Of a DNA stretch of 64,000 nucleotides, positions 4,632-12,176 are shown piece by piece. Made by a program: the position numbers and the translations under genes. Location of the stretch: contig NZ_LQZA01000001.1 of assembly GCF_001581925.1 (NCBI RefSeq), positions 434,001 to 498,000 of the forward strand, in the 5' to 3' direction. The first letter of the stretch is position 1; every line of letters begins with the position of its first letter. Under the pieces are notes generated by a model, which made no database searches, was not told the origin of the DNA, and saw only the letters and a program-made list of their open reading frames with translations. This DNA is from Ferrovum sp. PN-J185 (lineage in GTDB: Bacteria > Pseudomonadota > Gammaproteobacteria > Burkholderiales > Ferrovaceae).

Positions 4632-6299
4632 TTATCGTGATAGTTGAACAGGTGGTAATAGTTTAGTAGCGAATAATCGTTCTTTATAAAATTGTATTTT
4701 TTTTGCATAAATGGGAGCGTAGCCGGTGACTAAAATTAAGGCTCGGTTAGGTGGGAGCCTCATGGCTTCATCTGCTGTGAGTAGAGGTCTTCCAATAAAA
4801 TGGGTGCTTTTGGACGTATTATTTAGCATTAAAGCAAAACGAGATCCTGAAAATTGTTGTTGTGGTTGTCCTAACGTAGCGTTACCTAGCATTTTTGATA
4901 ATAATTCTGCTGTTTCAATTTTATTTGGGGCATAAGCCACACGAATATGACAGTTACTGATAATCGACTCGTCTCTACCGTAAGCTGCATGAAGCTGGCT
5001 AATATCTTGAATAATTAATAATGCTTTTAGGCCATATCCCGCTATAAATGCTAATGATTCTTGAAAAATATCGAGTTTTCCTAAACTTGGAAACTCATCA
5101 AGAAGTAGTAACAAGCGATGGGGGTACTGACTTCTACCCAAACCAGTTTCATCAAAATGCATTTTTTCTGTGAGTCTTCTTACCACTTGGTTAATAATTA
5201 AACGAATTAACGGTTTAAGTCGATCTTTGTCTGACGGAGGTACAACCAGATAGAGGGTAGTAGGATTTTCCATTAAGCTCTCTATAGTAAAGTCTGATGT
5301 TCTAACATTGTTAGCAACCACTTCATCCTTATAAAGGGAAAGAAAAGAAAGTGCGGTGGATAATACTCCTGATGCCTCGTTTGCTGCTTTATTTAAAAAA
5401 CTTTGCGCGGATTGAGCGACCAAAGGATGCGGACTATGGCCTAAGTGATTGGTATGCTGAATATCCTTCATGATTTGCTCAATACTTTTACCTGGTGTAG
5501 ATAGTAACGATTGAACTCGATTAAGTGATTTGTCAGTCTCTGCATAGAGTACATGTAAGATAACGCCAACCAATAGATCAAAGCCTGTTTTTGCCCAGTG
5601 GTCGTTAAGTCCACGGCCATCTGGATCTACAATCATGGTGGCAATATTTTGCACATCCCGGGTTTCAAACTCACTACCTAAGCGAATTTCATTAAGTGGG
5701 TTAAAGCGATGCGAATCTTGAGAGGTTGGATCAAATTTTATAATACGTTGTTTAAGTATGTTTTGACGATACCCACTTGTATGGTAATAATTCTCTCCTT
5801 TTATGTCATGAACCAGTACTGAATCGTGCCATCCTAATAGAGTCGGAATAACAATGCCGACCCCTTTGCCACTTCGTGTGGGAGCAAAAACTAAAATATG
5901 CTCACTATCGTGATGTCGTAAATAATAGTGTTGTCTTTTTTTTTGAAATACTCCCAAATATACGCCACCCTTTTTTGAGGATAGTAATCCTGTTGCTTTG
6001 ACTTGTTTTTCGTCCGCCCATTGGGCGGAACCATGATAAGTATGTTGGTTTTGTGCGAGGAACGCTTTGCGTTGAGCGGAATAAATAATACCGAGTGTGC
6101 TTGAAGTAATAATGAGTTGTATTAAATCGTGCCAAGAGATAGTTAAGATAAACTGTTTAATATGAATGTTAATGGTTGGTAAACGATGAGATAGCAATAA
6201 TCCAGAGCCATACCAAATTAATACACCAATTATAATAAGCGATATAAATCTTGGTTTTTCTACAGTTAAAGAAGATAAGATTTGCTTATCAGTTGTCAT
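4632..6299 (-). CDS. traG: TraG, VirD4-family type IV coupling protein
   Basis: Coupling ATPase that brings the relaxase-DNA complex to the transfer channel; 555 residues, slightly shorter than RP4 TraG. Two N-terminal membrane helices lie at about residues 17-37 and 57-75. The Walker A motif PTRSGKG is near residue 140 and the Walker B LLLLLDEFPSLG is near residue 395. It is first in the traG-traF-trbB-C-D-E run, 17 bases before traF. No relaxase gene is visible next to it, although the coupling protein needs one. Confidence 0.94.
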   Translation of the reverse strand: MTTDKQILSSLTVEKPRFISLIIIGVLIWYGSGLLLSHRLPTINIHIKQFILTISWHDLIQLIITSSTLGIIYSAQRKAFLAQNQHTYHGSAQWADEKQVKATGLLSSKKGGVYLGVFQKKRQHYYLRHHDSEHILVFAPTRSGKGVGIVIPTLLGWHDSVLVHDIKGENYYHTSGYRQNILKQRIIKFDPTSQDSHRFNPLNEIRLGSEFETRDVQNIATMIVDPDGRGLNDHWAKTGFDLLVGVILHVLYAETDKSLNRVQSLLSTPGKSIEQIMKDIQHTNHLGHSPHPLVAQSAQSFLNKAANEASGVLSTALSFLSLYKDEVVANNVRTSDFTIESLMENPTTLYLVVPPSDKDRLKPLIRLIINQVVRRLTEKMHFDETGLGRSQYPHRLLLLLDEFPSLGKLDIFQESLAFIAGYGLKALLIIQDISQLHAAYGRDESIISNCHIRVAYAPNKIETAELLSKMLGNATLGQPQQQFSGSRFALMLNNTSKSTHFIGRPLLTADEAMRLPPNRALILVTGYAPIYAKKIQFYKERLFATKLLPPVQLSR

Positions 6300-6341
6300 A
6301 GTGATGTTAATTTGTACCTTATTTAATTAGTGATGAATAAA

Positions 6342-7280
6342 TTATTTTTCTTCAAGTATTGTTTGAATTTGGTGTTGTTGACTTAAAAACTTAGCTGCTT
6401 CGCTTCCTTGTGAGATAGCTAAACTTATATATTGAGGATCGTTGTGTAATAGGTTTATCCAGTGCGCTGTGTAGGCTAGATGTTGTTCATCTGTTTGGTC
6501 GGGATGATCAGCCTGGTAGTGTAAACCCAATTCTCTACATAAAAGATAAGCACCAATTTCTGCAGTAATCTCTTCAATACAATAAGCGTTACTTCCAAAT
6601 TTACCAGACTGATTGCGTGCTAAACGATGCTCGTTACCTGATGCATGAGCTAATTCATGTGCAAAAGTACTATTTCGAGCATAGGCATTTCTAAATTGAT
6701 GAGGTAGGGGTAGCTTGATAATGTCTAGATGAGGTGAATAGTAAGCCGTATCTGATGCGGTTTCTATTACTTTAATACCTAATTGATAGGCGATTTTTTC
6801 TAATATCCTGGGATGATGTGGAATTTGCGTATCTGACGAAATATATTTCAAACAAGAGATACCAATAATCTGTTGAGCATTAAACACATAAGCTGTTCTG
6901 AATTGGGTAACTTTTTCTATAGTGTTATGGCTCGATTCTTCATTGGTATCATTTCTGACGTCAGATTTTTTTACGTGAGTTACGGGTAGTAGAATTGCTG
7001 TTCCCTGTTCACCTGCTTTAATTTTCCAACCCATTTGTTGTGCTTGATGAAACCCCATCCAGCGCGGATCTTCAAACCCAAAAATATCGGCACTTAGGGA
7101 TAAATGTAGTGCGTTAAATCCTCGGTAAGGTTGTCCGGTGATTGGATTGTGTGGTTTTGAATTCTCAGTACCAAATTGTGGACACCATGGTTTTTGCCAT
7201 GGGGGTAATTTATTTTCATTCAGAAGTGTAGTGAGGCTCTTGATAAAGTTATTGAGAATCTCTTTAGTGGACGTGACCAT
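6342..7280 (-). CDS. ArdC-like antirestriction protein with zincin-like domain
   Basis: 312 residues. The N-terminal half is an ArdC-type single-stranded DNA-binding domain (DUF1738: PWQKPW near 28-33, then PYRGFNALHL near 51-60). The C-terminal half is a zincin-like metallopeptidase domain with HELAH at 208-212. Relatives on conjugative plasmids protect incoming DNA from host restriction. It is the outermost gene of the element on this side, 42 bases upstream of traG, in keeping with early expression during transfer. The start ATG at 7280 has only a weak ribosome-binding site. Confidence 0.85.
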   Translation of the reverse strand: MVTSTKEILNNFIKSLTTLLNENKLPPWQKPWCPQFGTENSKPHNPITGQPYRGFNALHLSLSADIFGFEDPRWMGFHQAQQMGWKIKAGEQGTAILLPVTHVKKSDVRNDTNEESSHNTIEKVTQFRTAYVFNAQQIIGISCLKYISSDTQIPHHPRILEKIAYQLGIKVIETASDTAYYSPHLDIIKLPLPHQFRNAYARNSTFAHELAHASGNEHRLARNQSGKFGSNAYCIEEITAEIGAYLLCRELGLHYQADHPDQTDEQHLAYTAHWINLLHNDPQYISLAISQGSEAAKFLSQQHQIQTILEEK

Positions 7281-9788: not shown

Positions 9789-10610
9789 AAGAGGAATCAC
9801 GCCATCTAGTCCCACCCATGATAAAGCATGGGTGGCTTGTTCTCTTACTATTGGTTTAGCATGAAAAGCGACGCTAATATCTGCTTCTTTCATCATCGCT
9901 AAATCGTTCGCCCCATCACCAATAGCAACCACACCTTTAGGATTTTTTTGCTGCTTAAGTAAGGTACGTAACCAATACGCTTTTCCTTGTGCATCAACAA
10001 TATCGCCTAATACTCGTCCTGTTAGATAACCCTGTTTTACTTCTAGCGTATTTGCTCTTGTATGAGTTAAATTAAGTCTTTTTTGTAACCGTTCAGTAAA
10101 AAAAGTAAAACCACCCGAAACAAGTAATGTTTCAATACCATTATCTCGTAGTGCTTGTAAAAGTTGTTCAGCACCGGAAGTGATTTTAAGTCGCTCATTA
10201 TATACCGTTAAAAGTGTAGTTTCGGGTAAGCCTTCTAGAAGACTGACGCGCCGTCTTAAGCTCTCAGAAAAATCAATTTCACCGCGCATGGCAGACTCAG
10301 TAATAGCTGAAACTTGATCCTTAATACCCATGAAATCGGCTATTTCATCTATACATTCAATAGTAATTAATGTTGAATCCATATCCATTACGACAAGAGA
10401 AATATCAGAAAAAGAGCGGTGGTTAGGTACTTGCGCTATATCTAATTGATGAAGATTAGCTAATTCTGATAATTGACTCGTTAACGGTGTAGTGGGTAGA
10501 TAAATGAGTCGATCATTCACTAAGCGATAAGAATTGAATTTTGCAAGTTGGGCTAAAACATCTGATGAGAGTGGCTGTGATGACTGAACAACGGTTTGAA
10601 AGATAGACAT
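9774..10610 (-). CDS. serB: Phosphoserine phosphatase
   Basis: HAD-superfamily phosphatase of 278 residues that releases serine from phosphoserine. Motif I is MDMDST with Asp76 and Asp78, motif II is LVSGG, and motif III is GDGANDLAM. A roughly 70-residue N-terminal regulatory-like extension precedes the HAD core, as in other proteobacterial SerB proteins. It is convergent with serC-serA and its end overlaps the serA end, an unusual placement that keeps all three serine genes together although they are transcribed separately. Confidence 0.95.
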   Translation of the reverse strand: MSIFQTVVQSSQPLSSDVLAQLAKFNSYRLVNDRLIYLPTTPLTSQLSELANLHQLDIAQVPNHRSFSDISLVVMDMDSTLITIECIDEIADFMGIKDQVSAITESAMRGEIDFSESLRRRVSLLEGLPETTLLTVYNERLKITSGAEQLLQALRDNGIETLLVSGGFTFFTERLQKRLNLTHTRANTLEVKQGYLTGRVLGDIVDAQGKAYWLRTLLKQQKNPKGVVAIGDGANDLAMMKEADISVAFHAKPIVREQATHALSWVGLDGVIPLLEIQ

Positions 10611-10684
10611 AAAAAATGCTACAACAAAGGTTAGGGGATACCTTCATTGTAGCAATAAGTGGGGAGGTCGGTAGTTAGTTTCGC

Positions 10685-11098
10685 TTAGTTGGTAACCATA
10701 TTTTGAGGGTCTTGATGGTTAGCCATAGCTGTGGCGTAACCATAAACGCGTTGTTGGGCTTTTAGTAAACGGCTTTTTTGTTCTTCGATTCGTGCGAGAT
10801 CGCTTGCTAATTGATCGTGAGCACCATGAGCTACGTCACTTTGATAAACAGAGTGTAAAAGAATAAGTTGTTTTGATTCAGTGATCACATCTTGTATGCT
10901 TTGGTCGTATAGAACCTTAATAAGATCATTGGTAATATTTTGAGAATGATTACCTTGATTAAACTGTACTCTTTCATTGTATTCATCTTGTATGGCTTGT
11001 TTGGCATCATAATGTTGAGCATGTGCCATTAATGAACCAGAAGAAATAGCAAATAAGGCTAATAAAACAGTACTATTACGAACAAATTTTGAAGTCAT
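10685..11098 (-). CDS. Small exported protein of unknown function
   Basis: Not recognised. From the ATG at 11098 (chosen because GGAGA stands about eight bases upstream) it has 137 residues. A signal peptide of about 28 residues ends at MAHA, followed by a hydrophilic, probably helical periplasmic domain rich in Gln, Asp and Lys, with no cysteines and no membrane segment. It is divergent from the DUF6502 gene. One of the two TGGGA-N5-TCCCA palindromes lies just upstream of its probable TATAAA -10 element, so it may share that control. Confidence 0.7.
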   Translation of the reverse strand: MTSKFVRNSTVLLALFAISSGSLMAHAQHYDAKQAIQDEYNERVQFNQGNHSQNITNDLIKVLYDQSIQDVITESKQLILLHSVYQSDVAHGAHDQLASDLARIEEQKSRLLKAQQRVYGYATAMANHQDPQNMVTN

Positions 11099-11149
11099 GA
11101 GAAAGTCTCCTATGTAACATTGCAAACAGTGAAAAATTTATTTTATAAA

Positions 11150-11166
11150 ATGGGAAAATTTCCCAT
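11150..11166. promoter_or_regulatory. Palindromic operator 1 (TGGGA-N5-TCCCA)
   Basis: ATGGGAAAATTTCCCAT is a perfect 17-bp palindrome around a central A. It is a few bases upstream of a TATAAA (complement of 11142-11147), the likely -10 of the leftward small exported gene. It shares the TGGGA-N5-TCCCA pattern with a second site centred 39 bp away. Probably bound by a dimeric regulator; the DUF6502 protein encoded alongside is the obvious candidate, which is inference. Confidence 0.65.
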
Positions 11167-11181
11167 ATGTGTTTATTGTAC

Positions 11182-11210
11182 TTTACTTCTGGGAAAAAAT
11201 CCCATAAAAT
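11182..11210 (+). promoter_or_regulatory. Probable leaderless promoter of the DUF6502 gene with operator 2 in the spacer
   Basis: A weak -35 TTTACT (11182-11187) and -10 TAAAAT (11205-11210) are 17 bp apart. The operator TGGGAAAAAATCCCA (11190-11204) fits exactly inside the spacer. Transcription would start about six bases after the -10, at or next to the ATG at 11217. That ATG has no Shine-Dalgarno sequence, so the message looks leaderless. A protein bound in the spacer would block RNA polymerase directly. Confidence 0.5.
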
Positions 11211-11216
11211 TTTCTT

Positions 11217-12176
11217 ATGGTTACAAAAAAATTAAAATTAGATCCTGAATTGGTACTGAAACAGACTCTGATCATCATGCAACCCCTTATTTTGTGGCTG
11301 TTGCGTTCGGGTGTCCGTCACCCAGAGTTTTCTGTAGCTATCAAACAGGTCTTTCTTGAACAGGCATCTCAGGAATTAACGCGGTTGGGTGTTAAGCAAA
11401 CGGATTCAGCTTTAAGTCTTTTATCAGGACTTCATCGTAAAGATGTACGTGCTCTTATTCCTGTTCTTCAAGATTTAATTGTGTCAGGAGGCGATCATCC
11501 TCGGGAATTGCTAGGTAAGCCCACTCTTCCTTCGCAAATTATGACTAGGTGGCTTGCTAGTGGTTGGCAGGATAAATTGCCCCTTACCGGCACTGGAAGA
11601 AGTTTTGAGGTTCTAGTAAGACAGGTTTCTACCGATGTTCATCCTCGTTCTATATTAAATGAACTAGAACGACTTGGTATGGTTGAAGCTATTGATGATC
11701 ACGTACATTTGATTCGGGATGCATTCGTTCCTGACCCTACTATGGTGGAAGCGGGTAACTTATTAGCAGGTAGTACGGCTGATCACTTAGCAGCTGGGGT
11801 TCATAATTTATCTGGTACTGATGAACATAAGTTTCTAGAGCAAAGTGTTTTTGCTGATGGCTTATCAAAAGAATCTATTGCAGAACTTGAGCATCTGGCA
11901 AAAGCCCTTTGGTTACAAGTTATGAGTACTTTAATTGAAGCTGCTGTACCTTTAAGTGACAAAGATGAGCCAAATGGTGGCGATCAACGTATTCGTGTAG
12001 GTATGTTTTGTTACACAGAATCGATGCAACCTAAACCTAGTACGCTACCTAAAAAGAATAAATCAAAAGATGTTAAAACAAAAAATTCTAATAAAAACAA
12101 TAACGAAAACGCTTTTAAGTCTAATTTAAGTAATAGCACTGATAATAAAGTACGGGTAAAAAAGCCCCCTAAATAA
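11217..12176 (+). CDS. DUF6502 family protein, possible winged-helix regulator
   Basis: 319 residues, resembling DUF6502 proteins, known mainly from betaproteobacteria and without an assigned function. The N-terminal two thirds is helical. The segment RSILNELERLGMVEAIDDHV (about 143-162) reads like the recognition helix and wing of a winged-helix domain, so DNA binding is plausible. The C-terminus, from about residue 270, is a low-complexity Lys/Asn/Ser tail. It is followed after 18 bases by a DUF5666 lipoprotein gene, a pairing I recall from other betaproteobacteria. The start lacks a ribosome-binding site. Confidence 0.8.
   Translation: MVTKKLKLDPELVLKQTLIIMQPLILWLLRSGVRHPEFSVAIKQVFLEQASQELTRLGVKQTDSALSLLSGLHRKDVRALIPVLQDLIVSGGDHPRELLGKPTLPSQIMTRWLASGWQDKLPLTGTGRSFEVLVRQVSTDVHPRSILNELERLGMVEAIDDHVHLIRDAFVPDPTMVEAGNLLAGSTADHLAAGVHNLSGTDEHKFLEQSVFADGLSKESIAELEHLAKALWLQVMSTLIEAAVPLSDKDEPNGGDQRIRVGMFCYTESMQPKPSTLPKKNKSKDVKTKNSNKNNNENAFKSNLSNSTDNKVRVKKPPK

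Follow-up and report, generated by a model that had tools for sequence, protein, structure and literature searches.

Our data suggest that proteins of the family DUF6502 (PF20112) are likely dimeric autorepressors acting on an operator of their own, TGGGA-N5-TCCCA at the locus described here, which also control DUF5666 lipoproteins and are often produced from leaderless mRNAs. The computation shows the conservation and position of the operator, its coupling to the DUF6502 subfamily, the link to DUF5666 genes in cis and in trans and the presence of DNA-binding-type domains in a structure model of the protein. DNA binding, dimerisation, repression, leaderless transcription and a releasing signal are inferred.

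The original prediction, made for the window, i.e. the whole 64-kb stretch of DNA that was analysed, described two TGGGA-N5-TCCCA palindromes with centres 39 bp apart between a gene for a small exported protein and a DUF6502 gene, and this is confirmed (Table 1). The two sites are the only exact matches to TGGGA-N5-TCCCA in the window, in which five matches with at most one mismatch occur versus 1.44 expected. The 1.89-Mb genome (G000) contains three exact N5 sites, two of them at the DUF6502 locus, compared to one for a reversed-pattern control; the third lies just behind an rpsO-like gene, which we take to be rpsO, and looks like a chance occurrence. Both sites are found in the four genomes of the genus examined, with spacings of 39, 39, 39 and 37 bp.

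The prediction furthermore placed site 2 exactly between a possible -35 and -10 and site 1 just upstream of the opposite -10. Both claims held, with qualifications. Site 2 occupies exactly the 17-bp spacer between TTTACT and TAAAAT, and this was the sole promoter-like site found by a pattern scan of positions 10600-11300; since shuffles of this stretch yield 2.9 such sites, the promoter match alone is weak evidence at this locus. Site 1 lies directly upstream of the TATAAA of the divergent gene (11147-11142, minus strand), next to which no good -35 was seen. The divergent exported protein has matches in this genus alone (4/41 genomes), where site 1 occurs too; the pair of site 1 and divergent gene is an addition at the level of the genus, a point not contained in the prediction. 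Likewise going beyond it, the -10 hexamer ends only 6 bp upstream of the DUF6502 start codon, and the transcript is therefore predicted to be leaderless. As a separate observation on the surroundings, genes farther upstream (window positions 4632-7280) look like those of a coupling protein of the VirD4 type and of an antirestriction protein similar to ArdC, which hints at an integrated conjugative element.

Table 1. Coordinates of the operators, promoter elements, genes and predicted domains at the DUF6502 locus, given as positions within the window.
Feature	Position	Strand	Remarks
Operator site 1	11151..11165	none	TGGGA-N5-TCCCA, TGGGAAAATTTCCCA; on the side of the divergent small gene
Operator site 2	11190..11204	none	TGGGA-N5-TCCCA, TGGGAAAAAATCCCA; within the spacer of the DUF6502 promoter
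-35 hexamer TTTACT	11182..11187	+	TTGACA or TTGACT in several relatives
-10 hexamer TAAAAT	11205..11210	+	ends 6 bp 5' of the DUF6502 ATG
Possible -10 TATAAA of the divergent gene	11142..11147	-	read from sequence
DUF6502 gene, 319 aa, predicted autorepressor	11217..12176	+	PF20112, 82.2 bits, cut-off 27
Codons 34-91, three-helix HTH resembling TetR DNA-binding domains	11316..11489	+	structure model
Codons 101-172, winged-helix-like domain	11517..11732	+	structure model
DUF5666-like lipoprotein gene, 578 aa	12195..13931	+	18 bp 3' of the DUF6502 gene, same strand
Divergent small exported protein, 137 aa	10685..11098	-	

The palindrome is conserved upstream of many DUF6502 genes. We collected 154 DUF6502 loci of 123 genomes from relatives and the class, including near relatives and leaving out short fragments and those at contig edges; the start codon was assigned by rule as the nearest upstream ATG. 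An exact TGGGA-N5/6-TCCCA site is present within 300 bp upstream of 56/154 loci, compared to a mean of 0.05 (maximum 1) in 20 shuffles, 0/154 in windows within genes and 1/148 far upstream; for N6 alone a separate draw of shuffles gave a mean of 0.15 (maximum 2). Allowing one mismatch the count rises to 87/154, versus a shuffle mean of 3.35 (maximum 8), 2/154 within genes and 3/148 far upstream. Counted per genome, 52 of the 123 have an exact site and 79 a site within one mismatch. No exact TGGGA/TCCCA site with a spacer of 3, 4, 7 or 8 occurs upstream of the 154 genes. An unbiased tally of all 5-mer palindromes ranks TGGGA-N6 first (33 loci) and TGGGA-N5 second (23 loci); inside genes the top rank in the same tally goes to an unrelated palindrome (10). 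A chance origin of the operator is rejected on the basis of the shuffles, the in-gene and far-upstream windows and the other spacers.

Two further sets of loci gave similar pictures. A named collection of 80 loci, with genera taken from the record titles, shares 14 loci with the 154, and these 14 are omitted from pooled counts. It shows the N5 site with at most one mismatch in 57/80 loci, in 39 of these 57 at a position 27-30 bp before the start; outside Acinetobacter the site is found within one mismatch in 57/62. A fresh set of 21 loci, sampled from the phylum (24 rows, 3 of which had been included before), has an operator with at most one mismatch at 15/21. The operator is not universal: in 67/154 loci the 300 bp upstream contain no match with one mismatch or fewer, and just 4 of 64 loci labelled as having none show an exact site farther upstream. 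Some of the site-less DUF6502 genes (e.g. L059, L062 and L074) follow another DUF5666 gene. The TGGGA site is found in 0/18 Acinetobacter loci, and an exact site in 0/8 loci of one genus (g2) of the window's own family. In Acinetobacter we observed a degenerate TGCGA-N5-TCACT near the start in some of the 12 upstream regions inspected.

The length of the operator spacer follows the protein. A quick tree of the 154 DUF6502 proteins, calculated without bootstrap, has two sides of 63 (clade B) and 91 rows (clade A), joined by a branch with 100% SH-aLRT support. Clade B contains 23 exact N5 and no exact N6 sites; clade A contains 33 exact N6 and no exact N5 sites. Three loci of the N5 clade were labelled N6; these labels stem from hits at one mismatch around position -134 in genus g2. 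Both clades are present in eight genomes. In two of them (G197 and G047) exact sites precede both paralogues, with the predicted difference in spacer, the clade-A site of G047 lying 750 bp upstream; the other six have a single paralogue with a site, always with the predicted spacer, in two cases at one mismatch. As the spacers of paralogues match their clade, the operator is linked to the protein and not to the species, although the direct comparisons are few and come from two genomes.

This coupling extends to single residues at the head of the predicted recognition helix. R74 is invariant (154/154) and K75 is present in 134/154, and residue 73 is His in 62/63 clade-B rows and mostly Thr, Ser or Asn in the 91 clade-A rows. 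In a larger set of 241 loci, 118 of them with a TGGG-N7/8-CCCA site, H73 is paired with the short spacer in 74 cases against 1 and T/S/N/D/Y73 with the long spacer in 43 against 0; the sole H73 locus with a long spacer (L137) is a clade-A row with a weak site. The fresh set shows H-R-K in 12/12 N5 loci and T-R-K in 3/3 N6 loci, and in its 6 site-less loci position 75 is Arg in five and the motif N-R-K in one. This pattern is as expected if R-K reads the GGG half-site shared by both operators; the contact itself is inferred. That the spacer length tracks the DUF6502 subfamily suggests, in the absence of binding data, that the protein recognising the site is DUF6502 itself. A variant palindrome was observed in addition: TGTG-N7-CACA replaces TGGG-N7-CCCA in L353-L355 (helix T-R-R or Q-R-R) and L147 (H-R-R). 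The TGTG palindrome is also found at five H-R-K loci without a TGGG site, and L004, L199 and L200 (R-K at 74-75) carry TGTG-N7-CACA; because of the five H-R-K loci, residue 75 as a specificity switch is a lead only.

The structure model of the protein is consistent with a DNA-binding function. The window protein exceeds the curated PF20112 cut-off, and in Pfam searches at E up to 1 it matches this family alone and is for that reason not filed as TetR. An AlphaFold2 model (md3337978fa55) built with 79 sequences has a pLDDT of 79 and a pTM of 0.61. Helices 35-57, 63-70 and 74-89 form an HTH, with the recognition helix starting from residue 74 and the sequence HRKDV at 73-77, followed by a winged-helix pattern (104-165) and two long helices. 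A Foldseek search with the whole chain gave no significant match (best E 0.12). Residues 34-91 align with many entries of TetR-type regulators, TtgR reaching Z 8.1 with an rmsd of 2.2 Å over 58 residues; superpositions of the HTH on TetR domains gave Z up to 8.1 over 46-58 residues, values that common helix packing can reach as well. Residues 101-172 superpose on winged helices, best on Rv2827c (Z 7.6, rmsd 1.9, 63 residues) and lower on GntR (6.9), Crp-FNR-type (6.6) and OhrR (6.4) proteins. Some of the structural matches, winged-helix rows included, are non-regulators, and the Z values are moderate.

The original prediction had noted a winged-helix-looking segment in DUF6502, which held in the model at residues 101-172 and is complemented by the TetR-like HTH, so that the model predicts two DNA-binding-type domains, if with moderate scores. 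It had named two conditions that would refute it, a model without any DNA-binding fold and the absence of the palindrome upstream of other DUF6502 genes; both were checked and neither applied, the palindrome being found at many of these genes. Its central claim, DUF6502 being a repressor of its own cluster, is supported, with no binding data available; repression, rather than mere binding, is inferred from the position of the operator. Our analysis goes further in that the cluster consists of DUF6502 and a DUF5666-type lipoprotein and in that DUF5666 genes at other places in the genome seem to be controlled as well.

In the window as well as in many relatives the operator overlaps the core promoter predicted for the DUF6502 gene itself. 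Where the sites are start-proximal, many relatives have a better promoter than the window. Clade-B operators frequently fill the spacer of a TTGACA/TTGACT-17-TATATT-like promoter; in clade A the operator is often located 19-20 bp ahead of the start, with its AT-rich middle forming the -10. Sites at these standard positions are found in 25/91 clade-A and 42/129 clade-B loci. Of these, 18/25 (clade A) and 28/42 (clade B) reach a promoter score of 9 or more out of 12 and have a -10 that ends 5-9 bp ahead of the start, compared to 0.022 and 0.014, respectively, in a null obtained by single-base shuffling of the 60 bp upstream. From the operator lying over the predicted core promoter we infer for these loci that the bound protein would exclude RNA polymerase and that the mRNA would be leaderless.

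The second family tied to this system is DUF5666. The gene following DUF6502 encodes a lipoprotein with a GFGS-type signature in 115/213 loci with enough downstream sequence, most commonly with a 4-bp overlap of both genes (69/115). These lipoproteins were recognised by a sequence pattern, not by Pfam, and 21/25 of those chosen for alignment have a Pfam match to DUF5666. The 578-aa protein of the window has a lipoprotein-like N-terminus, as read from its sequence; it remains below the DUF5666 (PF18914) cut-off, with no match at E up to 0.01 and a weak stretch of 14.9 bits. In a single comparison it is homologous (E 2e-17) to the product of L205, which matches DUF5666 with 57.3 bits. Across the class, DUF6502 is present in 99/369 sampled genomes, and DUF5666 occurs in 83/99 DUF6502-positive versus 11/270 DUF6502-negative genomes (Fisher 3e-53, treating genomes as independent, which they are not).

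The operator is found also at DUF5666 genes away from DUF6502, meaning on another contig or distant on the same contig of draft assemblies. For 21 such genes, a subset of all that matched, the site is exact in 12 and within one mismatch in 15, compared to 0/160 and 1/160 in controls; without G140 and G345, which were known from an earlier site search, the counts are 10/19 and 13/19. In the window genome the sole other DUF5666 gene found (C1:245939 on) has TGGGTAAAATTCCCA, a site with one mismatch ending 31 bp before its ATG. As this genome holds 35 sites within one mismatch versus 32 of the reversed pattern, TGGGTAAAATTCCCA is notable for its place and not for its score. An AT-centred N6 pattern gave 18 sites in 11 clade-A genomes, seven at DUF6502 and, by coordinates, five at DUF5666 genes, with six elsewhere; the reversed N6 pattern has zero matches in the same genomes. 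Three DUF5666 genes were inspected in genomes without a DUF6502 match. One of them has an exact site (G246, 81% complete), and one of the other two had just 35 bp of upstream sequence.

A genome-wide regulon defined by exact N5 sites was considered and rejected: 14 relatives have 1-7 such sites per genome, and the reversed-pattern control yields 0-3, so that many sites are due to chance. Twelve N5 sites were inspected individually; those of G000 and G002 lie behind an rpsO-like gene, one of G001 overlaps a tRNA-like gene, one of G009 is located within a long frame and that of G028 was left unassigned. Several other positions are recorded here as observations in their own right. An exact N5 site lies upstream of a DUF6627 gene in two sister genera (G014 and G020; L085:1851-2216 and L087:898-1218), a possible further target; at both loci we take the genes to be a PA2779-like (DUF6627) gene followed by a peptidase gene. 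Another exact N5 site precedes the gene of a Thr-rich protein in three genomes of two sister genera (G009, G014 and G024; L081:1511, L082:2355 and L086:1947), the protein having no Pfam match in the two scanned (L082 and L086). A redoxin-like gene has an exact N5 site in G007 and G009 (L080:2510 and L084:2557) with nearly identical flanks in two genera, which may reflect transfer or a binning artefact. In a clade-A genome (L294:1501) an exact N6 site is part of a longer perfect palindrome among tandem copies of a small membrane-like protein.

Among the rival explanations the one surviving best, which we nevertheless regard as unlikely, is that DUF6502 binds the operator and activates transcription, e.g. 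by MerR-type reshaping of the spacer. The clade-B operator often lies within the -35/-10 spacer, and no expression data exclude activation. Against it, several relatives such as L190-L193, L195 and L197 have good hexamers exactly 17 bp apart, in a search restricted to spacings of 16-18 bp, for which no reshaping seems needed, whereas MerR promoters are known for longer spacers; and in clade A the operator frequently lies over the -10, a position from which the protein, once bound, should obstruct the polymerase. A second possibility, which we consider very unlikely, is that another transcription factor binds the palindromes and that the DUF6502 and DUF5666 genes are merely its targets. In its favour, binding by DUF6502 has not been shown, and in G246, which is incomplete and lacks a DUF6502 match, a DUF5666 gene carries the site. 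It is opposed by the agreement of the spacer with subfamily and residue 73 of DUF6502, which holds as well in both genomes allowing a comparison of paralogues, by the DNA-binding-type domains in the DUF6502 model and by 12/18 N6 sites of the 11 clade-A genomes being located at DUF6502 (7) or DUF5666 (5) with none for the reversed pattern. The palindromes acting as RNA hairpins (terminator or attenuator) instead of a protein operator is all but excluded and was rejected, for although a pattern scan marks site 1 as terminator-like, site 2 lies upstream of the predicted transcription start and should be absent from the transcript, conservation is confined to the outer half-sites, the centre being variable, and exact sites exist with spacers 5 and 6 only.

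DUF6502 shares features with several known systems without matching any of them. Like TetR-family autorepressors, e.g. TtgR, it would combine the logic of a one-component repressor with a palindromic operator over the core promoter. Unlike these, the window protein has no match to a TetR-family Pfam domain. TetR proteins have an all-helical ligand domain directly behind the HTH; this is not met by DUF6502, in which the HTH is followed by the winged-helix-like domain (101-172, helix-strand). With winged-helix regulators it shares the superposition of residues 101-172 on their winged helices, but there is no significant match over the whole chain, and in DUF6502 the winged helix comes second, behind the HTH. 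The operators of actinobacterial CebR-type LacI regulators (TGGGAGCGCTCCCA; PMC3377646) have the same half-sites as the DUF6502 operator, but a spacer of 4, for which there are zero exact matches upstream of the 154 DUF6502 genes. The CebR-type motif, TGGGAGCGCTCCCA, belongs to a protein family and a phylum different from those of DUF6502. MraZ boxes are direct repeats with TGGG-containing half-sites; TGGG is thus common to both, in MraZ boxes as direct and in the DUF6502 operator as inverted repeats.

In the autorepressor model, which we favour, DUF6502 would act as a one-component transcription factor on TGGGA-N5-TCCCA, forming a symmetric complex from which a dimer is inferred. R74-K75 at the start of the recognition helix in the TetR-like HTH would read the GGG half-sites. 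At site 2 the protein would fill the spacer between -35 and -10 and keep RNA polymerase off, and occupancy of this site would repress both its own mRNA, which is probably leaderless, and the DUF5666-like lipoprotein gene that follows. At site 1 it would repress the divergent small exported protein, and at least one more DUF5666 gene elsewhere in the genome would be under its control. Release of DUF6502 would be triggered by an unidentified signal, for which the helical C-terminal part is the probable receiver.

In the open-licence literature searched, neither DUF6502 nor PF20112 is named in any paper, which is no proof of absence; the mentions of DUF5666 examined there are incidental, and nothing relevant was found on the motif or on the architecture. 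Autorepression by promoter occlusion is an old principle. What is new, as far as the literature was searched, is the view of DUF6502 as a regulatory family with an operator of its own, the dependence of the spacer on the subfamily and the connection to DUF5666.

A bolder reading, to which we incline by a narrow margin only, is that many Proteobacteria control their DUF5666 lipoproteins through an unrecognised family of transcription factors combining a TetR-like HTH with a winged helix. The two old subfamilies of these factors would read the same GGG half-site with spacers differing by 1 bp via residue 73, so that paralogues in one cell keep separate operators, and the operator would either fill the promoter spacer or be centred on the -10 of a leaderless mRNA of their own. 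The analysis provides a testable function and a DNA code for a family of unknown function and connects DUF6502 with the DUF5666 lipoproteins, another family that is unknown. It also supplies natural examples of autorepressors whose mRNAs are predicted to be leaderless and of a pair of paralogous regulators that a difference of one base in operator spacing apparently keeps separate.
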